From: Verrucomicrobiota bacterium
GTDB lineage: Bacteria > Verrucomicrobiota > Verrucomicrobiia > Limisphaerales > UBA9464
Length of the DNA stretch: 64,000 bases
Assembly (NCBI GenBank): GCA_947454705.1
Contig: CANGKZ010000014.1
Coordinates: forward strand, 1 to 64,000
Direction of reading: 5' to 3'
The notes under the pieces are model-generated. The model was given only the letters and a program-made list of their open reading frames with translations. It had not been told where the DNA came from and ran no database searches. The position numbers were made by a program, and so were the translations under genes. Of this stretch, positions 11,507 to 52,311 are shown piece by piece. Each line of letters opens with the position of its first letter. Position 1 is the first letter of the stretch.

Positions 11507-14500
11507 ATGTCATATCCATCCAATCCCCATTCCCGGTCGCGTTACGCGCTCGCGTTGATGCTGGCAGCCTCGGCTGCCCTGGCCTCGATCCAGGCCAAGA
11601 CCATTACCGTTACGACCACGAACAACGACAACCCTGCAGCGGGCAGCGTCTCGTTGAAGCAGGCCATCGCCCAGTTGGCCGATGGCGACGTAATCCAGTT
11701 CAACATTCCCGGAGCCGGACCCCACGTGATCGCCACCCCGTTGGGAGGCTACGCTCAGATCACGGCGAATAATGTGACCATCGATGGTTACTCCCAGCCC
11801 GGATCGAAGCCGAACAGCAACGGAATCCTCGGGGGCAACAATGCGGTGATCGACATCGTGCTCGATTCCACCGGAAACGAGTCCGGTCCGAGCGCTGATC
11901 CGGGTGCTCCGGATCAAGTCACCCGCCGTTCCACCCGCATGCTGATGTCGGGCTACGGCGACAGTGAAAACGCCATTCTGGGTGTGGTCGGCGGCGACGG
12001 ATTCAAGGTGCGCGGGTTGTCCTTCATTGGCCGCCCGACCGATGGGAGCACCGGGGATCCTGCGATCTACGCGATCGCCCTCGCCCAGGAAGCCAAGAAC
12101 GCCAAGGTGCAGGGCTGCTGGTTCGGATTGAAGCCCGGTGATCCGTACACCATGGAGAGCATCAAGCCGGTCACCGATGCGGTGGCGGCCTTCCGGTATC
12201 GCACCGGTGGCGATGTCTATTCCGGTGGGCTCACCGTGGGCACCGACGGTGACGGCACGGCCGACGTGCAGGAATTCAACGTCGTGGTCGGAACGCACAT
12301 CGCGCTCGCCATCGAAGCGCCCGATCTCCGCGTCTCCGGCAACTACATCAACGTGTTCCCGGACGGCGTGACCTTCGTGGACGTCGAAGCCATGAACGGA
12401 GTGTATCAGGCCGCCGGACGCAGCGGTGGTGATGCCAGCATCGAGTTCATGGAAAACGGCCGCGTGACCGACAACACCATCATCGGCACCAACGGCGACG
12501 GAAAGAGCGACGGCAACGAGCGCAACATCGTGGCCCATCCGTTCTACAGCCACGACATCGAGTTCTACAGCGCGGCGAACAACCTGGTGGTCGCCGGCAA
12601 CTACTTCGGTGTCGGAGTGGACGGCACCACCGCCCAGCCCGCCCTCACGGCCGTCACTCCGGATCTGATCTCCCTCCCCGGAGGCAACGCGTCGATTCGT
12701 GTTGGATCCAACGGAGACGGCGTCAGCGACGACATCGAGGGCAACGTGGTGTTCAATCAACCCGGTGGCCGCTTCGTGCAATCCGGCGTCACCACTCCAA
12801 TCACCGCACGTCGCAACCGTTTCGTGAACGCGGCCTTCGCCGGCTTCCCGTTTGCCGACGGCGCCGACAACCGTCCGTACGCCGACTACTACGCGTCGGC
12901 CATCGACAATCCCTCCAACGGAGTCGTGCCCACGATCACCTCGATCACCGACGGAATCCTGACTGGAACTCTTCCCGCGCCCAAGGCCGGCACCTACACG
13001 AAGAGCGTCGTGGACATCTACGTCGTCGATAAGAAGGCAGCCGACGCCGGGCTCAATCTGCCGGGCACCTATGCCGGTTCCTTTGCCGATGGCGGCACGG
13101 GCGACCAGGATTCCGCTGCCAACAAGTTCAAGGTGGACCTTCGCGGCCTGCCGATCGCACCGGGTGACTCGATTGCCCTTGCGGTCACCTACACCTCGGC
13201 CGCCGCGGGCACGCCGGGAACCAACTCCATCACCGGACCGCTCTCGCTGGCATCGGTGGCAAATCTCCCGGTCATCATTCCGGGCAGCGTCGAATCCATC
13301 GGCCTCACCCGCATCGTTCCCGACAAGCCGATCAACGTTCCCCAAAACGATTCGCTCGGAAACTGGGAGCCGTACGCCAGCGTCGTCGGCACCACGACCT
13401 TCGTGATCGAGGGCAACACCTTCGCGGATGGATATGATTCCACCTCGGATGGACGCCAGCGCTACGTGGTCGCGCTCCAGCCCGCGGACGGCAAGGCTGG
13501 CAAGACGGTCGAAGGCTTCTACAACGACGCCAAGCAGCCGTATGCCGGACCGGTCAACGCCTCGCGTCAGAACGGCAACCCCGGCCGTGTCGCCGGTGAC
13601 ACCCGCCCCGGGGCCACTCACTACATCGTCGGCGGCGAAGCCTCCCCGCACGTGTTCCTCGATCAATTCGGCTCCGACAATCGTTGGACGCTCGGTTTTG
13701 ATCGGTTGGTGGACGGCCGCTACGGCACGGTTCAAACCTTTGACCTGAACCTCAGCACGGTCACTCCGACCCCGCTCATGAAGGCGGCAGATTCCTCCAA
13801 CGGCCGTCTCAAATCTGGGACTGCTGCTGGCAACCAAATCTCCCGCTACGGCGGCGATGTCGTGGGCCTCGGCAACGGCAACTTCCTCTCCGTGGTGGAA
13901 GATCGCTCGCACGTGATCGCTCCGGTGGACGCGGTGATCGCCACGATCTTCGCCCCGGATGGCACGGTGGTGAAGGATTCGTTCGTCGTCGCCAACAGCG
14001 ACATCTGGGCCAACGTCGCCGCCTTCCAGGGCGGATTCGCCGTGCGCTGCAAACCGCAGGATGGATCGGCGGGCCGCGTCATCTACCTGTTCGACAATGC
14101 CGGCAATCCGAAGGGCGTGATCAACCAGACCTCGTCCGGAGCCAGCTTCGACGGCGGACGCGGCGATGGCACGCGCATCGCGGGCCACGTGAATTCGCCC
14201 TACATCTACCTCACCGGAAAAGTCACCGATGCCCAGGTGGTGAAGGTGGCCGTGTGGGATACGCGCGATCCGCAGCGGTCCGCGACCTTTGATGTCAGCG
14301 AGCCTGCGTTCGTCGGCAACAACGACCGCGCCAACCTCGCCGTGGACGCGTTGAACCGCGTGACGGTTTCTTGGGTTTCCAGCCCCGATGGGTACGAAGC
14401 CAACCAGGTGGCGGCCCGCGTGCTGGCCTTCAATGGCGACACAATGAAGTTCACCGCATTGACCCCGAGCTTCTTCCCGTTCGTGAACGCGGCGAAGACC

Positions 14501-14905
14501 GGCGGCATCCGCACCCTCCAGATGAGCGTCGCCATGACCACGCGTCAGATCTGCGTCGCCGCCAAGGGTGAGATCAACCTGCAGAACAAGCCCGCGCAGG
14601 GCGCCACGATCAACGCCTCGACGGGAGCCCCGTTGAAGGAGTTGAACTTCTACACCGTGTTCTCGCATCCCGCCCCTCAGGATGATCCAACGCCTGCAGT
14701 CGGCGGCGGCAGCAGCCTCACGGTCACCGCGACGAAGTCCGGGGCAAATCTGGTGCTGACCTGGACCGGAGGCAGCGGGCCGTTTGTTGTGCAGAAGAAG
14801 GCGGCAATCACCGATGCCTGGACGGACGCCACCTCCACATCGGATCGCACCTTCAGCATTCCAGCGTCGGCCGCAACCGGCTTCTACCGCGTGACGGCAC
14901 CCTGA
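11507..14905 (+). CDS. Giant secreted protein with CSLREA-like/parallel beta-helix N-terminal region
   Basis: Signal peptide; SLKQAIAQLADGDVIQFNIPGAGPHVI and NVTIDGYSQPGS resemble CSLREA-domain proteins; ends in the shared C-terminal module (GFYRVTAP). Confidence 0.8.
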   Translation: MSYPSNPHSRSRYALALMLAASAALASIQAKTITVTTTNNDNPAAGSVSLKQAIAQLADGDVIQFNIPGAGPHVIATPLGGYAQITANNVTIDGYSQPGSKPNSNGILGGNNAVIDIVLDSTGNESGPSADPGAPDQVTRRSTRMLMSGYGDSENAILGVVGGDGFKVRGLSFIGRPTDGSTGDPAIYAIALAQEAKNAKVQGCWFGLKPGDPYTMESIKPVTDAVAAFRYRTGGDVYSGGLTVGTDGDGTADVQEFNVVVGTHIALAIEAPDLRVSGNYINVFPDGVTFVDVEAMNGVYQAAGRSGGDASIEFMENGRVTDNTIIGTNGDGKSDGNERNIVAHPFYSHDIEFYSAANNLVVAGNYFGVGVDGTTAQPALTAVTPDLISLPGGNASIRVGSNGDGVSDDIEGNVVFNQPGGRFVQSGVTTPITARRNRFVNAAFAGFPFADGADNRPYADYYASAIDNPSNGVVPTITSITDGILTGTLPAPKAGTYTKSVVDIYVVDKKAADAGLNLPGTYAGSFADGGTGDQDSAANKFKVDLRGLPIAPGDSIALAVTYTSAAAGTPGTNSITGPLSLASVANLPVIIPGSVESIGLTRIVPDKPINVPQNDSLGNWEPYASVVGTTTFVIEGNTFADGYDSTSDGRQRYVVALQPADGKAGKTVEGFYNDAKQPYAGPVNASRQNGNPGRVAGDTRPGATHYIVGGEASPHVFLDQFGSDNRWTLGFDRLVDGRYGTVQTFDLNLSTVTPTPLMKAADSSNGRLKSGTAAGNQISRYGGDVVGLGNGNFLSVVEDRSHVIAPVDAVIATIFAPDGTVVKDSFVVANSDIWANVAAFQGGFAVRCKPQDGSAGRVIYLFDNAGNPKGVINQTSSGASFDGGRGDGTRIAGHVNSPYIYLTGKVTDAQVVKVAVWDTRDPQRSATFDVSEPAFVGNNDRANLAVDALNRVTVSWVSSPDGYEANQVAARVLAFNGDTMKFTALTPSFFPFVNAAKTGGIRTLQMSVAMTTRQICVAAKGEINLQNKPAQGATINASTGAPLKELNFYTVFSHPAPQDDPTPAVGGGSSLTVTATKSGANLVLTWTGGSGPFVVQKKAAITDAWTDATSTSDRTFSIPASAATGFYRVTAP

Positions 14906-21090: not shown

Positions 21091-24000
21091 TCATTGGAGC
21101 ACCCGCGCACGGAAGAACGTGGGCTGACTCCCGGCTGCGGGTTGTCCGAGGTCCACGGTGCGATCGCCCCCGGGAATCGTTTGGAGCGCGTTCCAACGGA
21201 TCAGATCCACGGAGGACTCCAGCTGCAGCGTGATCCCCGGAGCCGAGCTCAATTTGAGCAGAAGACGACCATCGACCGAACGATCCAATGAAATAGAGGG
21301 AGCTGCAGTTCCGGTAATTGTGAAGATCGATTCCGAATGGAGCGGCGTCCCTCCCGGCTCTTCATTCCAATGAACTGCCGCCTGGTTGGTGAACGTCCCG
21401 CCCACGCTGGAACGCAGCGTCACGGTAAAGGTTTCGGGAATGAGCAGAGGAAGTCTTCCCAGCGTGAACGCCAGATTGTGTCCGTCGAATGTCACCTTCC
21501 CCCGGGTGCTGGAGGTCGAAACCACCTGCCAGGAGGACGGAAGCGGCTGAATAACTTCAACTCCCGTGGCTCCGCATTCTCCATGGGCGGACACCGTGAG
21601 GATGAGCGAAAACTCCTCGCCGACATTTCCGACGGCAGGGCTGTAGTCGATGGTGGAACGAACCACCTGGGAGAAACACAAGTGCCCCACCAGCCAGTCC
21701 ACCGCATTTCCAAACAGTGCATCGCGACTCACGAGGCTCGACGACTCGGTGCCCGCAGTGTGCAGGAAGAACTGGGTGACGGTGTTGGGGTTTGCCGGAT
21801 CCTCGGAACTGTCCGCGGAAGGAGCCATCAGCAGCACCGGCTTTCCACCCACGGTGGCGTCCACCTCAACATCCCCGGCGCCCGCGAAGGCGGACTCGAT
21901 CGCTCCCGGATAATGGAAGTTTTCCACCAGACCGTTTCTGGAACGAATCAAGGGATGATCGGTGGTGACCTGCTTGAACTGCAGTTCAGCCCCGGACACG
22001 GAACTGCTTCCCGAGGGCGTTGCGCGAAGCAATTGATACCAACGATTGCGCAGCTCGGGTGCCAGTCCGGAAACGGCGCCAAAGAGGTGTTCGCCCACGA
22101 AGTAGAGCGCCGTCCCGTTCAAGCGGGCCGTCTCAAATGCGGCAACGATGGGTTCCGTCAACCGAACCGCTGCGTCACCGTCATCGGTCCAGATCGCAAG
22201 GCGATATCCAAACAGGGATCCCGGCCCCACGGTCTCAGCAGCCAGAAAATCGACGGTCCTGGTCATCTTGCCCAGAGCCTCCGCGATGTACGCGGTCTCC
22301 GGCCCCCTTCGACTCGAAACCACGGCGATCTCGGAGCGATGCCCCCCGACCGTCACTGTCACCGCCGGCGAAACCACCGACGCGCCCGAGTTGAGAACCG
22401 CCCGCGCGATCAACGAGTAGGAGCCAGGATCCACGGTTATCCACTCCGCGGCGAACGGCGCCGATGCGCTGGACGCCACAGGGCTGCCGACGACGAGATA
22501 TTCCACACGCACCGGCGGCACCTCGAAGTTTTGCAAGTCTACGGCCAGTGAAATCGGAGTACCGAGAAAGAACTTGGTTCCTTCGACCGGCTGGGTCAGT
22601 CGTATCGACGACGGCGGCTTGGGAACGAAGGCGGTTACCCGTACGGAAGGCGAAACGGTGGATGCGCCGGAGTTGTCGGTCGCACGCGCGGAAAACACAT
22701 GGGTTCCCTCCTGGAGCGAATTCACCACGAATCGATGAGGCGGTGTCGCGATCGAGGCCAAAAGTGTATTTCCGTCGAAAAACTCAACCTTCACCACCGA
22801 TCCATCGGGGTCCTTGGCGTCGGCCACCAACTCCACGGACGCGGGCAACTGAACCCGGCCGCCTTCGGCCGGAGACGACAGAGTGATCGAGGGCGGTTGA
22901 TTCGGATTCACAACGCTGATCAAGACGGCGCGTGAAACCGTGGTGACGCCCGATACATCGGTAGCACGGGCGGTCAGCGAGTAATTTCCCGCGGCCACGT
23001 TATTCCAGGTCATCCGGTACGGCGCTCCCAGAACCCCGCCGATGCGCACAGGGCCGTCAAAAAACTCCACCTGCCGAATGACGTCCGTCCCGGGCGTCAC
23101 CTGGGCATCGATCTGGATCGAGGCCGGAGCGGTTCCCGTGAATCCAACGATCGGAGCGGTGATCTGCACCACTGGTCCGACGTGCGGCAGCACCTGAACA
23201 ACCACCTGGGCGAGGGTTGTCTGCGCGGGTGAACCGGAATCGGATACGGCCACCGGAATCTGCACGGTTCTCGCGCCGGGGCCGCGGGGAGGAGTCCACT
23301 GGACCACACCGGAAGCCGCGTCAATTCGAGCTCCGATCGGAGCGCCCGCCCCGAGGGCGTAGGAAAGCGCCTGCCCGGAATCGACATCCGTCGCGTGAAT
23401 CGTGAACGCCACCTCCCGTCCTTCGATCTGACTTGGAGCCGGCAGCGGATCGAAGACCGGCGGGTGATTCGCTGGAAGCACCACCTCCAAGTGAACCGGA
23501 GCCGAGGTTCCCTTGACCCCAAGGAGGTCTGTGGCGATCGCAACCAAATCGAGCGGGCCGGGCTTGAGATTCGTTAATCGCGCTTCAAAAGGCGGATTGG
23601 CACTGCTCCCCAGCAGTCGCGAACCGTCGACAAACTCCACGACACGAATCCCTGTGGAATCCAGCGCAACCGCCTCGGCGCGGACGAGCACCGAATCATC
23701 GACACGAACCGTGTCGCCACTTCTCGGGCTGATAATCGCCACTTGCGGGCTTCGATGCGGAAGCACACGAATGCTTACCTGAACGGTATCCGACGACGGG
23801 GGAATTCCGGAGTCGGTTCCTGTCACGAGGATCCTCCGGACGACTCCTCCATCGGTCAGGGGCGGCGTCCATCGAAAATCCCCGGTGACCGAATCCAGCA
23901 CGGCCCCTGCCGGAGCCCCCGGCTCCAGCGAATAAAGCAACGGAACCGTCGAGTCGGTATCCCTGCCCGTGACCTTGAATCGCACCTCGTTCCCGGCGGC

Positions 24001-25743
24001 AACGGTCAGGTCAGGGATTGGATCCAAATGGGGAATCTGATTTTGCCCCACGCCGCCGAGATCGGTGATGGAACATGGGAGCGCGCGAAACGAGAAACTT
24101 CCCTGCCCTGCGATCAGTTGAACGTTGCCCTTTCCCGGACCTGCCGGGACCAGGGCTCGAAACACTCCGTTCGCATCCGTAACTGCCCCCACATATCCGC
24201 GCCCGGCGAAGTCGAACAGATTGGCGAGGGTTCCCGCCGGAACCGGTTGGCCGTTCAGTAGAACGCGTCCTTGAACAACCCCCAGCGGACCACAGAGGTC
24301 CAACAAAATGGTGTTGGTCTTTCCGGGGAAAATTCGAATGGGCATCGGTGTGGTCGACGCCAGGAAATCCGATTCGGTGCCAAGGATCGCGGAGCCAAAT
24401 CCCAGGCGGATCATCCCGGTTACCGGAGGAAGGTTTGCGATCAACGTGGAATCCGCCGAAACCGTGTTGGTCAGAATTCCATCCGCGCGCACCACAACGG
24501 CGGTATTTGCCGGGATGGCGGAGATGGGCTCTCCCTTGTAGGTCAGCTTGATGAGCAACGCCCCGGAACCCACGTTCAGGTCTCCGATATTATCCTCCCC
24601 GCCGCCTCCAACCGAGTAGGTAAAACCACCCTGACCGTCGACCAGATAAACATGCCCACTGCCACTGCCGGCCGGCACGAGAAACTGAAACACGCCGTCG
24701 GCGGAAGTCTTGCCGCTGGCGAGGGTCCTTCCGTCCGACGCGAACAACACCGCATCCACCCCCGCACCCGCCGGCCTTCCATTGACCACCAATCGGCCGC
24801 GGACCAGCCCCAAAACCCCGCTGAGATCCACAGCAACTCGATTCGTGATTCCGGCAGCTAAAGTCACCGATTGCGGGGTTACCAAATCCGGCACATTGGC
24901 CTCAAAGGCGGTCGCCCCGTAGCCAAATCGCAGGGACAGCGTGGTGGCCGGAAGAAAGCCCAGAAGCGTACCTCCGTCACTCATGGAAATGATCCGGCCG
25001 AACAAATCCGCTGCACTCACCGCCACCGATCCATTCACCCCCAGCGCGGAAACGGGCTGCCCCTTGTAGAGCAGATCAATTCGAAGGGCCGCCGAGCGAA
25101 CGGCGATTTCCCCGGCATCCATCGACTCGCACGCCCGGGCCTCGTAGGAAAAGGCACCCTGCCCCGCCACCAGCTGAACCTGCCCTTTCCCCGCGCCAAT
25201 GGGAACCAGTGCCCTGAATCGGCCCTGATCATCGGTCCGCGCCCCAATCCAGGGCTGCCCACCGGAATCGGAAAGCGTCACCAGTCGGAAGGCCGGTGGA
25301 ATCTCCCCATTGAGCGTCACCTTTCCGGTCACCAACCCCACCGCCTGGCACAAATCAAAATCGAGCCGGTTTGTTTTTCCCGCTTCGAGGGACACCACCC
25401 GGGCCGGCACCAGATCCGCCCCCTGCCCCCCGGTGCTGCCTCCGTACCGGACGTGAACAATCGCGTTGGTCGGAGGAAGGCGCGTCAACGTGGTGACACT
25501 TTCTGAAAGCGTGGAACTGAAGACTCCGGCGGCCGAAACCTGAATGCTCCCCGCGGCGCCAAGACTACCAATCGGCTGACCATTCCAATTCAGCCCGATG
25601 ACGAGGGTGCTCGAGGTGAAATTGATGTTGGTCTGGGCGCCCGCTCCAAAATGGAACAGCAGCCAAATCAGGAGCCCCAGGGAGCTCCCTAGGGATCGCG
25701 AGACCAGGGCAGGACGATACCCACCACGTTTCCAAGCCAGCAT
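21091..25743 (-). CDS. Giant secreted protein: three carboxypeptidase-regulatory-like repeats, cadherin/Ig-like domains, DUF11-like domain, shared C-terminal module
   Basis: Likely start MLAWKRGGYRPALVSRSL at 25743. Repeats VVQGRVLLNGQPVPAG..GVFRALVPAGPGKG x3; VEFFDGNTLLASIATPPH Ig-like; ends TFFRARVLQ. Confidence 0.82.
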   Translation of the reverse strand: MLAWKRGGYRPALVSRSLGSSLGLLIWLLFHFGAGAQTNINFTSSTLVIGLNWNGQPIGSLGAAGSIQVSAAGVFSSTLSESVTTLTRLPPTNAIVHVRYGGSTGGQGADLVPARVVSLEAGKTNRLDFDLCQAVGLVTGKVTLNGEIPPAFRLVTLSDSGGQPWIGARTDDQGRFRALVPIGAGKGQVQLVAGQGAFSYEARACESMDAGEIAVRSAALRIDLLYKGQPVSALGVNGSVAVSAADLFGRIISMSDGGTLLGFLPATTLSLRFGYGATAFEANVPDLVTPQSVTLAAGITNRVAVDLSGVLGLVRGRLVVNGRPAGAGVDAVLFASDGRTLASGKTSADGVFQFLVPAGSGSGHVYLVDGQGGFTYSVGGGGEDNIGDLNVGSGALLIKLTYKGEPISAIPANTAVVVRADGILTNTVSADSTLIANLPPVTGMIRLGFGSAILGTESDFLASTTPMPIRIFPGKTNTILLDLCGPLGVVQGRVLLNGQPVPAGTLANLFDFAGRGYVGAVTDANGVFRALVPAGPGKGNVQLIAGQGSFSFRALPCSITDLGGVGQNQIPHLDPIPDLTVAAGNEVRFKVTGRDTDSTVPLLYSLEPGAPAGAVLDSVTGDFRWTPPLTDGGVVRRILVTGTDSGIPPSSDTVQVSIRVLPHRSPQVAIISPRSGDTVRVDDSVLVRAEAVALDSTGIRVVEFVDGSRLLGSSANPPFEARLTNLKPGPLDLVAIATDLLGVKGTSAPVHLEVVLPANHPPVFDPLPAPSQIEGREVAFTIHATDVDSGQALSYALGAGAPIGARIDAASGVVQWTPPRGPGARTVQIPVAVSDSGSPAQTTLAQVVVQVLPHVGPVVQITAPIVGFTGTAPASIQIDAQVTPGTDVIRQVEFFDGPVRIGGVLGAPYRMTWNNVAAGNYSLTARATDVSGVTTVSRAVLISVVNPNQPPSITLSSPAEGGRVQLPASVELVADAKDPDGSVVKVEFFDGNTLLASIATPPHRFVVNSLQEGTHVFSARATDNSGASTVSPSVRVTAFVPKPPSSIRLTQPVEGTKFFLGTPISLAVDLQNFEVPPVRVEYLVVGSPVASSASAPFAAEWITVDPGSYSLIARAVLNSGASVVSPAVTVTVGGHRSEIAVVSSRRGPETAYIAEALGKMTRTVDFLAAETVGPGSLFGYRLAIWTDDGDAAVRLTEPIVAAFETARLNGTALYFVGEHLFGAVSGLAPELRNRWYQLLRATPSGSSSVSGAELQFKQVTTDHPLIRSRNGLVENFHYPGAIESAFAGAGDVEVDATVGGKPVLLMAPSADSSEDPANPNTVTQFFLHTAGTESSSLVSRDALFGNAVDWLVGHLCFSQVVRSTIDYSPAVGNVGEEFSLILTVSAHGECGATGVEVIQPLPSSWQVVSTSSTRGKVTFDGHNLAFTLGRLPLLIPETFTVTLRSSVGGTFTNQAAVHWNEEPGGTPLHSESIFTITGTAAPSISLDRSVDGRLLLKLSSAPGITLQLESSVDLIRWNALQTIPGGDRTVDLGQPAAGSQPTFFRARVLQ

Positions 25744-25820
25744 GGCGGGGATAACAACATAAAGGGGTGCACCTAACAAGAACCTACTGCATATGGGGCC
25801 ACCCGCCACTCACCACACCC

Positions 25821-27616: not shown

Positions 27617-27830
27617 CGGCCAAAGGTGACCGCCCCCGGGATGCCGATCCAAGCGCAAACGCGATTTACACGCCTCAAAACTGCAAAACGCAAGGGCCTC
27701 CCCCAATTCGGGTTTTTCAAGACTTCAACTGGACAGAACGCCTCCGTTTCGGCTTCTTGGAGGTTCTGAAACGGGCAATCCGGTCAGTGGCCCCCTGTTG
27801 ATCGCAGGTTGTCCAGCAGACTCAGCTCCC

Positions 27831-30800
27831 ATGAAATCGAATCGCATACCAATAATCCTCGCCGGTGCGACGCTGTCCTTTTGGCAGCTCTCAGCGGCCA
27901 CGAATGACCTCCCGGCATCCATCAAATTGCCGCTCGGAACCTCCACCACCCGCGGATTTGTCGTGCGCACCGTGCAGGCGCCGGAAGCCGTGACGGTTGG
28001 CAACAGCCTCCAACGTGCGTTGAAGCAGCTCAACGGCACCCTCGCCGATTCCACCGGAGCCCTGATCTCCAACGAGGCCACTCCTGGTGCCGGCGCCGCC
28101 GGTGCCTACACCGTCGACACCCTGAACTTCGATGCCGACGGCAACACCTACGACATCCTTCAGGCTCCCGGCACTCCCGATGAGACCGTCATCTTCACCC
28201 TCAACCCGGTGCTCTTCCCCGGCATCCCGGGAACCGGCGGTCACACGCTGAACTTCGCCACCGAAGCCGTCGCCTACCTCGAACTCCCCGCAGGTGTCAC
28301 CACCTTCGGCGTGAGCGTGGGTGCCGATCGTACCGACGTGAATGACGACGACAGCTATGTCGCCTTCGCCGGACAGAACCCCCGCGACTTCTTCGCCGCG
28401 CAGGTTGGCAGCTACGAGCGCGGCGGCGTCCAGGCCTTCAAGAGCAACCAGCATAGCGAAAACACCTGGTCGGTGAACGCGCCCTCCGCTGGCATCTATC
28501 CCTTCCGCATCGTTCAGTGGCAGACCGGCCACGGATCCTCGCTGGCCTTCTACACCGTCACCCCGACCACCGATCCGAACTTCTCGGAACGCGTGCTGGT
28601 GAATGACCCGAACGACGCCCGCGCGATCAAGGCCTACACCACCTCGTCCGTTGCCGCAGCCACCGCTGCCTCCGTGGCCGAAGTGAGCCCGTCGCCCGGT
28701 TCCGCCGGTAACGCCGCCTCCGCTCCGATCACCGCTGTGATCGCGGACGGATCGACCACCGTCGCCACCACCGGCGTGAAGCTGTACCTCAACGGCACCG
28801 CGGTCGTTCCGCAGTCGCTCAGCAAGACCGGCAGCAAGGTCAGCCTGAGCTACAGCCCGAACGCCACCCGCACCGACAAGGTCAACACGGCCCGCCTCGA
28901 GTACACCGACTCCACCGGCGTCACCCGCACGAACAGCTGGACCTTCGACATCGTCGTCGGCTCCGGATCTTCGACGCAGGTCGCTGGCCAGTGGGACTTC
29001 AACAACGGCGACCTCTCGGCCACTGTTGGCAAGCCGCTCGCCTACCTCGACGGCCCGAACGGTCTCACCAAGCAGGGCACCGTCTACGGCACCACCACCG
29101 AGCTCGGAGTTCCGACCATCGGCGGCAAGGAAGCCAAGATCATCAAGCTTCCGGGCGACCTGAAGCGTGAGATCGGCCTCCTCATGGACCACGGCATCAA
29201 GCCCAACGGCGGCGGCACCCGGGTCAACCAGTACACCCTCATTTTCGACATCTTTGTCGGAACCTCCGGCCCCGGCGCAGCCTCGCTGCTGCAGGTCAGC
29301 TCCACCAACAACGCTGCCGGCGACGACGGCGATCTGTTCTGGCAGGGCTCGAACTTCGGCCAGGGCGGCGGCGGCTACAACGGCACCGGCGCCTTCACCG
29401 CTGGAGCCTGGCACCGCGTTGCCGCAGCCTATGACGAAGCCGCGAATCCTCCGGTCGTCACCAAGTACGTGGACGGCATCAAGCAGGACGACTGGACCAA
29501 CAACCAGGGTCTCGACAATCCCCGCCGCGCCCTCCTTCCCTACGCCGTTCTCTTCGGCGATGGCGACCAGGACGAGCGCCGCGAGATGTACGTGAACTCG
29601 ATCCAGATCCGCGACGGCAAGCTGAGCGATGCGGAAATGTACCTCCTCGGCGGACCTTCCGCTGACGGCATCCCCCAGGTCATCCCCAGCAGCAACGTGA
29701 CCGGTCAGTGGGACTTCGAGCGCGGCGACCTCTCCGCCTCCATCGGCAAGCCCCTCCAGTATCTCGACGGCGCCAACGGCCTCACCCAGCAGGGCTCGCA
29801 GTACGGCCTCTGCTCCGAACTCGGCGTTCCCACGATCGCCGGCAAGGACGTGCGCATCCTCAAGCTTCCGGGCGACCTGAAGCGTGAAATCGGCCTGATC
29901 ATGGATCACCAGATCAAGCCCAACGGTGGCGGAACCCGCGTCAACCAGTACACCATCGCCTTCGACATCCTCGTCGGCACCACCGGCCCCGGCGCAGCCT
30001 CGCTGCTCCAGGTCAGCTCCACCAACAACGCTGCCGGCGACGACGGCGATCTGTTCTGGCAGGGCTCGAACTTCGGCCAGGGCGGCGGCGGCTACAACGG
30101 CACCGGCGCCTTCACCGCTGGAGCCTGGCACCGCGTCATCGCAGCCTATGACGAAGCCGCGAATCCTCCGGTCGTCACCAAGTACGTGGACGGCATCAAG
30201 CAGGACGACTGGACCAACAACCAGGGCCTCGACAATCCCCGCCGCGCCCTCCTCCCCTACGCCGTTCTCTTCGGCGACGGCGACCAGGACGAGCGCCGCG
30301 AGATGTACGTGAGCTCGATCCAGATCCGCTCCGGCAAGCTCACCGACGCGCAGCTCGCCCTCATGGGAGCTCCGGATGGCGACGCCCTCCCGGTGGCTCT
30401 TCCCGACTCCACGGTCACCGGTCAGTGGGACTTCGATCGCGGTGATCTCTCCGCGACCGTCGGCAAGCCCCTCCAGTTCCTCGACGGCAGTGGTGGCCTC
30501 ACCCAGACCGGCAGCCAATTCGGCACCTGCTCCGCCCTCGGTGTTCCGCTCATCGGCAATGTCGATGCGCTCATCCTGAAGGTCCCTGGTGACCTCTCCA
30601 ACAAGGTCGGTTTGGTGATGGATCACCAGATCAAGCCCAACGGCGGCGGAACCCGCGTCAACCAGTACACCATCACCTTCGACATCCTCGTCGGAGAATC
30701 CGGTCCTGGTGCGGCCTCGCTGCTCCAGATCAGCTCCACCAACAACGCCGCCGGCGACGACGGCGATCTGTTCTGGCAGGGCTCGAACTTCGGCCAGGGC

Positions 30801-31322
30801 GGCGGCGGCTACAACGGCACCGGTGCCTTCACCGCTGGTTCCTGGCACCGCGTCACCGCGGCCTACGACGAAGCGGCCACGCCTCCGGTGGTCACCAAGT
30901 TCGTCGACGGCATCAAGCAGGACGACTGGACCAACAACCAGGGTCTCGACAATCCCCGCCGCGCACTCCTCCAATACGCCGTTCTCTTCGGCGATGGCGA
31001 TCAGGACGAACGCCGCGACATGTACGTGAACTCGATCCAGATCCGTGCTGGAAAGCTGAGCGACGCCCAGATGGTCGCACTCGGCGCTCCGACCGGCGCT
31101 GGCATCCCGCTCGCCCTCACGGTCAAGACGCCTCCCGCGCTGACCATCACCAAGTCCGGTGCGAACGTCACCGTGTCCTGGCCTGCTGACGCCTCCGGCT
31201 ACACCTTGGAATCCACCTCCTCCGTCGGCGCGCCGACCTGGACCGCGGTTCCCAACGTGACCGGAAACTCGGTCGTCCTGCCGGCCTCCGCGGCGACCCA
31301 GTACTACCGCCTCCGCAACTAA
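27831..31322 (+). CDS. Giant secreted protein with three tandem ~239-aa LamG/concanavalin A-like lectin modules and shared C-terminal module
   Basis: Likely start MKSNRIPIILAGATLSFWQLSAA at 27831. xxGQWDFxxGDLSAxxGKPL begins modules at 28980, 29697 and 30414; ends QYYRLRN. Confidence 0.85.
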   Translation: MKSNRIPIILAGATLSFWQLSAATNDLPASIKLPLGTSTTRGFVVRTVQAPEAVTVGNSLQRALKQLNGTLADSTGALISNEATPGAGAAGAYTVDTLNFDADGNTYDILQAPGTPDETVIFTLNPVLFPGIPGTGGHTLNFATEAVAYLELPAGVTTFGVSVGADRTDVNDDDSYVAFAGQNPRDFFAAQVGSYERGGVQAFKSNQHSENTWSVNAPSAGIYPFRIVQWQTGHGSSLAFYTVTPTTDPNFSERVLVNDPNDARAIKAYTTSSVAAATAASVAEVSPSPGSAGNAASAPITAVIADGSTTVATTGVKLYLNGTAVVPQSLSKTGSKVSLSYSPNATRTDKVNTARLEYTDSTGVTRTNSWTFDIVVGSGSSTQVAGQWDFNNGDLSATVGKPLAYLDGPNGLTKQGTVYGTTTELGVPTIGGKEAKIIKLPGDLKREIGLLMDHGIKPNGGGTRVNQYTLIFDIFVGTSGPGAASLLQVSSTNNAAGDDGDLFWQGSNFGQGGGGYNGTGAFTAGAWHRVAAAYDEAANPPVVTKYVDGIKQDDWTNNQGLDNPRRALLPYAVLFGDGDQDERREMYVNSIQIRDGKLSDAEMYLLGGPSADGIPQVIPSSNVTGQWDFERGDLSASIGKPLQYLDGANGLTQQGSQYGLCSELGVPTIAGKDVRILKLPGDLKREIGLIMDHQIKPNGGGTRVNQYTIAFDILVGTTGPGAASLLQVSSTNNAAGDDGDLFWQGSNFGQGGGGYNGTGAFTAGAWHRVIAAYDEAANPPVVTKYVDGIKQDDWTNNQGLDNPRRALLPYAVLFGDGDQDERREMYVSSIQIRSGKLTDAQLALMGAPDGDALPVALPDSTVTGQWDFDRGDLSATVGKPLQFLDGSGGLTQTGSQFGTCSALGVPLIGNVDALILKVPGDLSNKVGLVMDHQIKPNGGGTRVNQYTITFDILVGESGPGAASLLQISSTNNAAGDDGDLFWQGSNFGQGGGGYNGTGAFTAGSWHRVTAAYDEAATPPVVTKFVDGIKQDDWTNNQGLDNPRRALLQYAVLFGDGDQDERRDMYVNSIQIRAGKLSDAQMVALGAPTGAGIPLALTVKTPPALTITKSGANVTVSWPADASGYTLESTSSVGAPTWTAVPNVTGNSVVLPASAATQYYRLRN
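28980..31130 (+). repeat. Three tandem in-frame repeats with a 717-bp period
   Basis: Period measured from the V-x-G-Q-W-D-F codons at 28980, 29697 and 30414. The LLQ[VI]SSTNNAAGDDGDLFWQGSNFGQGGGGYNGTGAFTAG block is near-identical in all three. Confidence 0.93.
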
Positions 31323-45718: not shown

Positions 45719-45951
45719 AACGGCGTCTCAAGGTGGAGATTCCCAACCGGTCGATACCAGGCCGGTTCATGTATTTCGGCCCGCTTCAACCTGCGACGGG
45801 ACTCCTTGCGCTTTTTCCTGCTTCTTTTGCGCTCCGGAGCGACACCCCCGGGACCCCGCATACGTAAATACCGTCATATCAGCAGTTCCCAGTTGGGGTG
45901 AATCCATTCCAAGTGGCAGCGTTGGGGCTTGTTCGGATCTGCGACACTGCA

Positions 45952-48900
45952 ATGAATTCACGCCCAAACGCCACGCCACTTGCCTTCCTTCACCGCCGCA
46001 GCCCATCGAATTTCCACACACATGTGAGCTCGATGGTTGTCATGGCAGCGCTTTCCCTGGCTCCCGTCCTGATGTCCCACGTTCAAGCCGCGCTTCCGGC
46101 CGGACGTGACACCACCTTCCAGACCCCCGCCCTCGACGGACTCGCCAACGCCGCCGTGGTCCTGCCCGATGGCAAGATCGTCATCGCCGGCAACTTCACC
46201 ACCGTGGGCGGCGTGTCGCGCCCCGCGCTGGCTCGGTTGAACTCCGATGGCACCCTCGACACGTCATTCGCCCCGCCAATCGCATCGACCGGTGCCTTCG
46301 GCAAACCTTCTGTATCAGCCCTGGTGCGCCTGCCCGATGGCAAGCTGATCGCCGCCGGTCAGCCTTCGTTCTTCACCACCGGCGCGGTGGTACGGACCAA
46401 CATCATCCGCTTCACCGCCGATGGCGCGGTGGATGCCGGCTTCAACGCGAATACCGCCAATCACCTGGCGGGTCTTGCCGTGCAGCCGGATGGCAAGGTG
46501 CTGTTCTCCACCTTTCTCACCAGCGTCGGCGTGTTTGGGCCCACACGCTTGAACGCGGACGGTTCGGTGGACTCCGGGTTCAAGTACACGTCGGGCCTCC
46601 AATCGGGATTGCAGCCGCTGCAATTCCAGGTGCAGGCCGACGGCCGCATCCTGGTGCTTCAGGGCGACAACAATCCGAATTCGGGCGGCATTCAGAATCT
46701 GGTCCGCTTCAGTTCCACCGGCGCGCCCGATCCCGGATACAAATTCCCGTTCCAGCTTCAGGATGAGAGCCGGTTCGCCGTGGCGGCCGATGGCAGCATT
46801 CTGGTGGCGGGCTACAACGCACCGCCTTCCAGCTTCACGCCGCAGATCCAGCGCGTGGCTCCCGATGGAACCGGGGATCCCAATTTCATCTTCTTCACCC
46901 AGCCGAACAACCAGGGTGTCCACCCGGTTCCCGCTGCGTTCCTGCCCGATGGCGGCGCGGTGATCGTTCGCAATCCCACAGCGGGTGACCGGCGCGTGAG
47001 CTTCTTCTATCTCACCGCCTCGGGAAAACTCGCCGGGAGCGTGGACCTCGCCAACGCCGGCAGCGTCCCAGGCCTGGGCACCCAGACCACGCGGGCCTTC
47101 GCGATGCAGCCCGACGGAAAGCTGCTGTTCTCGCAGGTATTTCTCGACGGCACGCAGAACGTGTTCGGCATGTTCCGCATGCCTCCCCCGCCCTCCCCGC
47201 TTCCGCCGGTGATCACCGTCCAGCCGGTGTCCAAGACGCTCGCTGCGGGCGAGGCCTTGTTCCTGACCTTGACCGCGACGAGTGCGAGTCCGATGACCTA
47301 CCAGTGGAAACACGCGGGCACCAACCTGACCGCGCAGACCAATCAATCGCTCAGCATCGGACAGGATTCGCCGGAGCGCGCCGGGGATTTCCTGGTGGTG
47401 GTGAGCAACACGTTCGGAAGCGTCACAAGCCAGACGGCCACGATGACGATTCGTCCTCCCGCCGCGATGGCCATCACCACCCAGCCGGTCGGCGGCACGG
47501 TGAAACTCAGCCAGTTGTTCAGCTTCTCGTCATCGTGCTCCACCGAAGTCACCACGGGCTATCAGTGGTTCAAAAATGGTACACCCCTCACCTCGGGGGC
47601 CGGACAGAGCTTCGGACAGGCCTTTCTTTCGCTCGCGGCCAATGATGCCAATCGCGGCGGCGATTACTTTGTGGTGTTCACCAATGCATTCGGGGGATCG
47701 GTGACAAGTTCGGTGGCGCATCTGGATGTGATCCTGCCCGGACCGCCGCAGATCACGCTGCAGCCCCTTGATTTGGGCCTGTACGCGTCGCAGCCGGTGC
47801 AATTGAGCGTGGCCGCGGTCGCCGATGGAGCGCTCACCTACCAATGGATGCACGCGGGAACGAATCTGAAAACGAGCAGCACCATCCCGAGTGTCACGGG
47901 GCCGACGCTGAACGTTTCGGCCGCGAATCCGGATCGCTTCGGCACCTACGCGGTTGTCGCCACGGTCACTCCCGGAGGCAGCACCACCAGCCGCGTAGCG
48001 CAGGTCACGTTGTTGCCCTCGGGCCCGCCGATTCTTCTGAGCCAGCCGAGTTCGTTCACCACCGACTTCGGCAAGAGCACCAACGTGTCGGTCGCCTTCA
48101 ACGGCGAGGTCCCGCTCACCGTGTACTGGCTCCACGCCGGGACCAACGTTCTCTTCTCACGCGGGCTTCCCGGATCGATCTACCCCACGCTGGATGCCCC
48201 GAGCACAAATGCCTACGCGTTCGCCGCCCTGCCGGCCACCGCGGGCGAGTATCAGTTCATGGCCTCGAATCGCTTCGGCGTGGTTCGCAGCAGCGTGGCC
48301 ACGGTGACCGTGACGCCTCCGACACCGGCAACCCTGGTGCGCGATCTCACCAACAGCGTGGTGGGAATCGGCGAATTCAATGGGAAGGCGCTCCGACAGG
48401 GCCTTGTGGTGACCAACCTCAGCGTGGTCGAGACCACCCACATCCTGTCCTTCCGCGTGGAGGGAAGCCTGCCTCCGTTCCGCTCCAGCGGCACCTGGCA
48501 ACTCGCGCTCGGGGTGAGCAATCGCTTCTGCGTGGGCGAGAATTCCGGTGCCGCCGCGGCCACCGGCACCTGGGGCTACATCGCCGGCGGAGACGTATTC
48601 TTCGCGCTGACCAATTTTCCGCGTGCCGGGGATCTCTCACGACTGGAGGCCTACGAGGACGGCCGATACAGCGTGGTGCTCGGAGGCAACAGCAGCCAGT
48701 TCCAATCGGGCACGTATCGAGTGCTCGGCAACAAGCGTCCCGCGACCAACACCTTCACCGTCGATGTGGTCAGCCCGAATCCGGTCGCCTACCGATGGAT
48801 CAAAGACGGTCAGCCGTTGACCCGCCTGTACACCACCACGACCACTTCGCTGGGCAATCCCCCGGCGCCCGGTGGAGTCAACCAGCGGGTGCAGATCAGT

Positions 48901-51900
48901 CTGGCCGATGTGCTACCTTCGGACGCCGGAACCTATGCGGTGGAAATCGAGAACTGGTTTCCGAATCCGGATCGCAGCGCGGGTCAGCCCGCATATTTGG
49001 TCACCTCGGTCACCCGCGGCGCACCCGCCACCCTCACGGTTCGGGGCTACGCCGAGACCAATGCCCCGGCGGTGACCAGCGTGTTCGAGTTCGCCCGCAG
49101 CGAGCCCACTTCATTGACGCTGCTGTCGGACAATTCCCTGCTGCTCGGCATGGGGCCCGTGCTCAGTTCCGTCTCGCCCGAGGGCCGGACCAACTGGTCG
49201 AAAAACGGCCTGCCGGCGCCGGTTCGCGCGGCGCTGAGCGATGGGCTCGGCGGCGCGATCTTCGGCGGTCACACCGGGGACTCCGGCGACTGGTACCTGC
49301 ACCGGATCCGTCCCACCAATGTGGTGAGCGGCGGCAAAACGAATTTGGTGATGACCAACTTCTGGACCCTCACCGTTGCAGGCCCGAGCACGAACTTCAT
49401 CGACACTTCCGGCATCGTTCATGGCGCCGAGGTGGCGGGACTCCTGCCTTCCAACGACGGCGTGCTTGTGGCGGGACGCTTTCGCGGACAGACCCGGTTC
49501 GGTGTCACCAACGTGCCGTACATTGGAACCCTGTTCTTCCCGCTTGGCGGCATCACCCTCACCAACGCCGCGCCGGGGGCGTTTGATCGCTCCTGGGATC
49601 TCTACCTGGCCAAGTACGACTCGTTCGGGAAAATCGTCTGGGTGCGCGGATACGGCGGTGTGAACGATGAACGCGTGGCCAGCTTCACCACCGACGCCGC
49701 TGGAAACCTGTTTCTCTCCGGCTCGTTCAAAGGCGTGGCGAAATTCGGAAGCCTCACGCTCGAGTCCACCAAGCGAATCGATTCCGCCACGGTTACCAAC
49801 TACGCGACCGACGGCTTCATCGCCAAGTTCACTCCGGACGGGTCGCCAATCTGGGCGAAGCGTTTCGGCGGAATGTTCAACAGTGCCTTGGCCGACACCC
49901 AGATCGCCTCGGCGGTGAGCGACGCCGCGGGCAATGTGTATTTCACCGCGACCCGCACGCAGACGCCGGTCGTGCTTCAGCCAGGAATGGCCGTGGGGGT
50001 TCACTACCTCGCCCGGATCAATACCGACGGCGAACTTCAATGGGCCCAAACCATCGAGGCCGTGGGAAACCCGGATTCAGCCAACGTCCCAGGGAACTCA
50101 CGTCTGGCCCTCGATGGCGAGGGCAATGCCCTGCTGGTCGAGGCTCCGTTGGTCACCGGTTCCAGCACCGCCGTAAGCCTGGGCGCGGCGTTGCTCGATC
50201 GACGCCCTTCGGCCGCCACCATGGTCGCCAAGTTCGCACCCAATGGCAGCATGCTCTGGATGCGCATGCTCGATGAGAAACTGCCCTTCGCCGACGACGC
50301 ACGGGGTGCCAGCACGCGGTACATCGCAGCGAATCCCGCCGGCGACCTCGTGCTCGTGGGATCCATGTCGGGCGGCACCACCTCAAGCAGCACCCGCACC
50401 GCAGGACAGCGTTTCGACACCATCGAACTCTTCACCACCAACAGCGCCACAGTCGTTCCGACCGTGCTATACATCGCGCGCCTCGCGCCAACCTTTGCCC
50501 CGGCGGCGCCCCGGTTCACCGTGCTTCCGGTCGATCAAACCGGTTTATTGCAAGATTCCCTCACGCTCTCCGGCGAAGTAACCGGCGTGCCCGTGCCCAC
50601 CTTCCAGTGGTTGCTCAACGGCACTCCCATTCCCGGAGCCACCAGCCGAGTGCTGACGTTTCCAGATTTGGAACGCACCAACCGCGGACGCTACGTGCTG
50701 GTGATCAGCAACGCGCTCGACGTCATCCGCAGCCCGTCGGTGGAAGTCACCCCGCAGCTGCGTCCCAACATGACCGGATGGACGATGGTCACCGCCACCA
50801 CCAACTACCTCGGTGCCCCCGCAAACATTGGTGCCGACGACGCGGGCAACAGTTACGCCCTGCTCATCGGCTGGGCCAACGGCGGCATCCTGGATCTGCG
50901 AAAATTCGACTCCGGTGGAAATTTCCGATGGCGATTTGTGGATCATCCCGACGCCTCCACCACGTACCTGCTTTCTCCGTTTGCACCGGTCGTGGCGCAT
51001 GGCGGAGAAGTCTTCATCGCCGGACGCGCCATCAATCAGCCCAGCCAGTTCAACCGCACGGAAGGAAACTTCATCGGTCGTTTGAATCCCGTCGACGGCA
51101 CCCTTCTCTGGACGAAGTCGCTCGGCAATGTGGCGGTCGGACAAACCGATTTGTCCACCGTTCGACTGCTGGATCTCGATGGCGCGGGACAGGTGCGCGT
51201 GGTCACTGCAGACAACCTGGGCAATTCGCGGGCGGTTCGATCGTTCCGTTACGACGGTACCGAAACCACCGGACCCGCACGTTCTTTCATTCCCACGGTG
51301 AAGGACGTTAACAATGGCCGCTATGCACTCGACACCTCTGGCGCGCTTTACTTCTGCGCGAATCGCGTCGAAGCCCTCGCCCTTGGCGGCACCAACATCA
51401 CCGCCCTGGGGAACAACGGCGCGCAATCGTTCGTGGTGGCCAAGTACGATCCCACCGGCGCCTTCCAATGGGTGCGCACCTTCACGGGCCCGAACGGCGG
51501 AGTGATCCGAGTCCCGGCGCTCAATGTGGACACGGGCGGCAACCTGCTGATCGCGGGAGAGCTTTCGCTCAGCACGGGACAAACGCTTCAGGTCGGAACC
51601 AACCTGCTGTCGGGCCGGAGCTTTATCACCAAGCTCACGCCCTCTGGAGACATCGCCTGGGCCCGGGGAACTTCCCTGGTGGTGCGCGATGCCGATCTCG
51701 GCCCTGACAACGCGCTCTACCTTGCGGGATGGTTCCGATTCGCCCCGGCGGCCAATGGCGGGGTCACGCGGAAGATTCCGTTCGGCACCAACTACGTCGC
51801 GGGATCGAGCGTCACCGGACACGATCTCTTCGTGGCCAAGATCGGGGCCGACGGATCGGAGCAGTTCATCCGGCAAAGCGGCGGACCCGAGTTCGCCACC

Positions 51901-52311
51901 GAGGATAACGCCACCGCGTATTTCGTGGCGGTGGATTCACGCGGCGTGATCACCACCGCCGGGTACACCCGGGTGCCGCACGCGGGAGGCGGTTTGGACT
52001 TCGGCGAACTGCGGTACCTCTGGCCCGATCTCAACCCGTTCGACATCGCCAACACCTTCGGCGACGTGCCTAGCTATTACATCGCTCGGGTCGAAGTGGG
52101 TGTGGCTCCCAACGTAACTCCGGAACTCAGCTTCATTCCGCCCGCGCCTGGCGCCACGTCACTCACGCTGACCTGGCCAACCGGATTTCGGCTGCAACGC
52201 CAGACCTCGCTGCAACCCGGCGCGTGGGAAACGCTGAACGTCACGTCTCCGTACGAGGCGAATCTGTCGGAGTTCACCCAGGGATTTTTCCGGGTGGTGC
52301 CAAATCCGTAG
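45952..52311 (+). CDS. Giant secreted protein: delta-60 repeats, Ig-like domains, SBBP-like beta-propeller repeats, shared C-terminal module
   Basis: ORF 45898..52311 with likely start [16 protein letters not shown] at 45952. [44 protein letters not shown] (delta-60); [40 protein letters not shown]; ends FFRVVPNP. Confidence 0.85.
   Translation: [2119 protein letters not shown]

Follow-up and report, generated by a model that had tools for sequence, protein, structure and literature searches.

A C-terminal module with a predicted Fn3-like fold on exported proteins of Verrucomicrobiota and its possible role in protein localisation

Four large exported proteins with similar C-terminal ends

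The window, i.e. the whole 64,000-nucleotide stretch of Verrucomicrobiota DNA analysed here, carries four open reading frames for large exported proteins whose presence, lengths and C-terminal sequences agree with the preliminary description. The first, at 11507–14905 on the forward strand, codes for a 1132-aa protein with a signal peptide at approximately 11507–11596 and no Pfam or NCBIfam domain. Its C-terminal module (..LVLTWTGGSGPFVVQKKAAITDAWTDATSTSDRTFSIPASAATGFYRVTAP) spans 14714–14902, ends at the stop codon (14903–14905) and is recovered with profile E-values of 1.5e-27 (seed) and 7.7e-16 (A2). This tail had been placed at 14713–14905; the module itself stands, but the frame had to be corrected, as coding runs from 14714 and a start at 14713 is one base out of frame. 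The second protein (1174 aa, 27798–31322, forward strand) contains three Laminin_G_3-like repeats and likely starts at the ATG at 27831, with a signal peptide at approximately 27831–27899; its module, also matched by the profile, lies at 31134–31319. The three LamG-type units, each of ~230 aa, are near-identical, which suggests a recent internal duplication.

The third and largest protein (2137 aa, 45898–52311, forward strand) is built of Ig, delta-60-repeat and SBBP-type propeller domains. It likely starts at the ATG at 45952, followed by a signal peptide at approximately 45952–46092, and its module was assigned to 52120–52305 from the profile matches and the position relative to the stop codon. 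The fourth, a 1572-aa protein on the reverse strand (21091–25809), has Big_7, He_PIG and DUF11 domains, a putative start and a signal peptide at approximately 25743–25633, and carries a divergent, profile-matched version of the module at 21097–21303 on the same strand (LLLKLSSAPGITLQLESSVDLIRWNAL...PTFFRARVLQ). The pattern first proposed for these ends, L.LsW....xLe.s....W....(F/Y)(F/Y)R, is right, with W and R as its only near-invariant columns; these two are also the only invariant residues in the alignment of the four window tails. W and R alone amount to a weak similarity, and the tail was therefore tested as a profile.

A large family in one genome and across the phylum

In the 5.4-Mb genome to which the window belongs, a profile built from the four tails yielded 38 matches at E ≤ 1, 34 of them new, and the newly recovered tails have endings visibly like those in the window. 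A profile of 27 tails raised the number to 111 at the same threshold (best E 6.6e-22), and a decoy profile of 14 reversed tails, a rough control in view of its smaller alignment, gave none. The shared C-terminal module on exported proteins is thus real, and it is found on about a hundred proteins rather than four. In 95 of the 111 cases, no more than 10 residues separate the end of the match from the stop codon; the last [FYWLI][RQ] mostly falls 2–6 residues from the C-terminus, and proline is the terminal residue in 44 of 96 tails. Only one W, one R and residues of the core are conserved; the tails are otherwise very divergent.

The remaining 16 matches are of mixed kinds (displaced, tandem, N-terminal, internal and Fn3-like), and part of them are C-terminal after all, with a match that is truncated or slightly displaced. 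One open frame of ~2817 aa holds three copies of the module (G000:C22:21645-23078), one of them C-terminal. At other loci (C40:41811, C34:21327 and the C11 loci L028/L039) the module sits close to the N-terminus, between the signal peptide and a further domain, and a few of the 111 matches are internal. Because copies follow the signal peptide or lie internally, the module is not a strictly C-terminal signal, and a signal of the T9SS type becomes less likely. In L028, the part downstream of the N-terminal module reads like an SGNH-type hydrolase.

The tail profile matched 94 of the 195 Verrucomicrobiota genomes sampled, spread over 63 of the 108 genera, and as tails were counted among the best 30 scored candidates of each genome, the counts per genome are to be read as 'at least'. 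Among 29 loci from 19 families that were inspected outside the original genome, 27 end no more than five residues before the stop codon; of the two exceptions, L150 stops 29 residues short of it, and L149 did not give a readable frame in this analysis. A scan of 85,462 species with a consensus protein, insensitive for so divergent a family, returned four loci, all in Verrucomicrobia, and an equally insensitive search of plasmids gave no match. A literature search found no description of the module, a C-terminal family that is real and large and apparently undescribed.

Proteins that carry the module

A simple, home-made signal-peptide score (not SignalP) was 2.0 or higher for 76% of the N-termini of tail proteins, as opposed to 11% of segments taken from the interior of these proteins. 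Together with the placement near the stop codon, this bears out the expectation that profile hits would be C-terminal and signal-peptide positive. The bodies are diverse: a Pfam scan of 20 tail proteins identified PA14, RCC1, TIG, BNR, LamG, vanadium-chloroperoxidase-like and lamin-tail bodies as well as HpiC1-like, cyclophilin, InlB-repeat, NHL, CAP, C-type lectin and Ig domains, and in none of the 20 did a Pfam domain cover the tail region. The original observation of like ends on unrelated exported bodies therefore holds well beyond the window. Clustering of the tail proteins by the similarity of their bodies gave 29 groups, one of which comprises 60 proteins that are probably chained through shared repeats. 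The open frames have a median length of 966 aa and are mostly long and beta-rich, and some are of 136–330 aa.

Verrucomicrobiota are important degraders of polymers in soil and sea, and to our knowledge little is known about how they place very large exported proteins. A tail that is shared by as many as about a hundred proteins in a genome and is absent from Pfam and NCBIfam offers an annotation handle for many 'hypothetical' exported proteins, and it makes substrate recognition directly testable in cultivated strains.

Exchange with PEP-CTERM tails

Like the PEP-CTERM/exosortase system (PF07589, PF09721), the module is a region of C-terminal homology that recurs on many signal-peptide proteins of a genome that are otherwise unrelated. 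PEP-CTERM was first noticed in Verrucomicrobium spinosum (PMC1569441). The two differ in size, a predicted folded sandwich of ~65 aa versus ~24 aa, and in the proteins that they terminate, those with the module being mostly long (median frame 966 versus 271 aa). The genome of the window has 32 PEP-CTERM matches, all in open reading frames other than those with tails. That the module might itself be PEP-CTERM is ruled out, as the preliminary description had maintained: the tails end in the W..FYR module and lack a PEP motif, a TM helix and a basic cluster.

When the bodies of the tail proteins were compared with the PEP-CTERM proteins encoded in the genome of the window, homologous bodies proved to carry either one end or the other. 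In one body family, distributed over three genomes, two proteins have the module and two have PEP-CTERM. Two of these are tandem paralogs (L163, G000:C10:127500-132000) that align over 238 residues with 42% identity (E 1.9e-47) and stay colinear up to their tails, which are the module in one and VPEPGTWALLG...RRNRR in the other. A search for this body in 388 genomes added two homologs to the family (E 5.6e-11 and 9.9e-6), of which L189 has a module-like end (..NWPFIATLTSG..KFYSITAQ) and L190 ends in VPEPSVYG...RRRRAAAQA. A second clean pair, C48 with PEP-CTERM and C9 with the module, shares 37% identity over 178 residues, and no protein with both ends was found. The exchange of the module with PEP-CTERM on homologous bodies, the main functional evidence, suggests that the module probably serves as an address label or an anchoring handle of a hitherto undescribed kind; homologs with alternative tails have served the same reasoning for GlyGly-CTERM, PEP-CTERM and LPXTG (PMC3237569).

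The genes for the two kinds of protein also tend to be neighbours in the window's genome, where 10 of the 32 PEP-CTERM matches are no more than 2 kb away from a gene with the module, which they often follow directly downstream, against a random mean of 2.6. In three other genomes the figure was 5 against about 2.9 expected, and this weakness led us to drop gene pairing as a mechanism.

Predicted fold and relation to Fn3 domains

Pfam and NCBIfam models gave no match to tail members beyond chance. An AlphaFold2 model of the tail at 31134–31319, computed from nine sequences, has a mean pLDDT of 88.3 and a pTM of 0.69, with strands at residues 11–15, 18–22, 31–35, 53–57 and 64–68, plus a short bridge close to the conserved Trp; its last strand, which the DSSP order suggests to be the equivalent of strand F, stops one residue before the C-terminus. 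Foldseek comparison of the 69-residue model with the PDB retrieved mostly Fn3 domains (TM by query about 0.5–0.6, E 0.05 or worse), and the lack of a significant E-value can be expected for so short a query. In profile searches of the PDB, the matches were glucanase/chitosanase modules of the CBM-like type (partial, E 3e-6) and, weakly, FN3con (3.5e-4). The model and these matches indicate an Fn3-like beta-sandwich that would end at strand F, without strand G, and that may therefore present strand F as an open, exposed edge.

With Fn3 (PF00041) the module shares the predicted strand order A-B-C-C'-E-F, in addition to the Foldseek and FN3con matches. It departs from Fn3 in that, on this strand assignment, the seven-strand A–G sandwich is incomplete, that a near-invariant C' Trp and a strand-F Arg are its own features, and that it is confined C-terminally. 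Pfam fn3 also misses it: no tail matches above the Pfam cut-off, and the five places in the genome that fn3 matches at E ≤ 0.01 include none of the listed tails. The preliminary description had named a generic Fn3 or Ig fold with no C-terminal bias as grounds for giving up the idea of a sorting signal; the predicted fold is indeed Fn3-like, but the C-terminal bias is extreme.

The CBM-like and FN3con matches bring to mind a ligand-binding domain (carbohydrate-, EPS- or surface-binding) that acts after secretion and goes unread by the secretion machinery, a role with which the many lectin-, LamG- or PA14-type hosts and the occasional N-terminal, internal and tandem copies accord well. Binding modules, however, are normally not confined to the last ~65 residues of a protein, nor do they stop just past their last strand; conservation here extends only to one W, one R and the core, and the exchange with PEP-CTERM suggests a localisation slot. 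We consider a binding domain a serious possibility, though on balance a rather unlikely one.

A function with no partner at all, as a passive folding or protease-resistance cap at the C-terminus of large, beta-rich exported proteins, would account for the length and composition of most hosts, for a compact tail predicted with high confidence and for sequences so divergent outside the core. Its presence on frames of 136–330 aa and on enzymes such as the cyclophilin, as well as its exchange with PEP-CTERM, makes a mere cap improbable. That the tails are ordinary Fn3 domains that happen to come last in their proteins is very unlikely: the predicted fold and two weak matches that look like complete C-terminal Fn3 domains (G000:C27:35506-35682 on the reverse strand and C42:42318-42494) speak for it, and the results with Pfam fn3, the end before strand G and the C-terminal position of the great majority of matches speak against it.

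Secretion machinery in genomes with the module

Both a GspD-type secretin (E < 1e-80) and exosortase were detected in all 55 of the 195 Verrucomicrobiota genomes with at least five tails, compared with 99 and 90, respectively, of the other 140 (Fisher 2.6e-7 and 3.2e-9), a correlation that ignores phylogeny, genome size and secretome size. In family f3, the sole tail-rich genome (G179) is also the sole one with a strong GspD, and its tail-poor members have weak secretin matches. Tails are few or lacking in many of the genomes that are positive for type II secretion, and exosortase, for which the window's genome has four PF09721 matches, is not specific to the module. Because GspD and exosortase associate with the tails equally well, the correlation cannot single out a machine. 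The preliminary description had suggested looking for co-occurring secretion or protease genes; no dedicated partner gene was identified.

The GlyGly-CTERM/rhombosortase system offers a parallel, as its tail is likewise correlated with type II secretion and homologs of its proteins bear PEP-CTERM or another tail instead (PMC3237569); GlyGly-CTERM is, however, a short tail of the TM type, and the module has no TM segment. Pel3/PelI lends some plausibility to a link with type II secretion: a loop of its Fn3 domain is needed for recognition by the type II system (PMC7949064), and these Fn3 domains are among the Foldseek matches of the modelled tail. As the Pel3/PelI domain is complete and N-terminal, the comparison is one of analogy only.

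The T9SS route is not supported, SprA_N being found in none of the 195 genomes in a search that also gave no match in the 14 genomes meant as positive controls. A divergent T9SS C-terminal domain (type A/B) would resemble the module in its general layout, a C-terminal beta-sandwich on Sec-exported proteins with signal peptides, but the lack of profile similarity (known models of T9SS C-terminal domains, like all Pfam and NCBIfam models, match no tail member) and the copies that are N-terminal or otherwise not C-terminal make this the most improbable explanation of all.

A possible role in localisation

The module thus lies, in most cases C-terminally, on unrelated signal-peptide proteins, is found widely in the phylum and alternates on homologous bodies with a known sorting tail. 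These observations favour the sorting or anchoring role originally put forward; the notion of a strictly C-terminal signal gives way before the N-terminal and internal copies. Localisation is the reading with the best support, and we see about an even chance that the module is a C-terminal localisation or retention domain of exported proteins. The ~65-residue tail would then be a folded, Fn3-like domain stopping after strand F. Sec would export the protein by means of its N-terminal signal peptide, the tail would fold in the periplasm, and a partner in the envelope would recognise the folded tail as a handle and transfer the protein across the outer membrane, with the type II system as the most plausible route, and/or hold it at the cell surface. 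The tail may occupy on large proteins the place taken by PEP-CTERM on smaller ones.

That the type II secretion system is the route that recognises the tail is a tentative proposal, and we would not count on it. Docking is more speculative still: strand F could serve as the docking edge, with binding through edge-strand completion. Carried further, the tail might be the recognition tag of an undescribed Verrucomicrobiota sorting route, in which a dedicated envelope receptor contributes the beta-strand that completes the open Fn3 edge and which acts with type II secretion in parallel to exosortase/PEP-CTERM; this fuller scheme strikes us as doubtful. The apparently complete Fn3 ends of the C27 and C42 proteins are possible relatives of the truncated tail.
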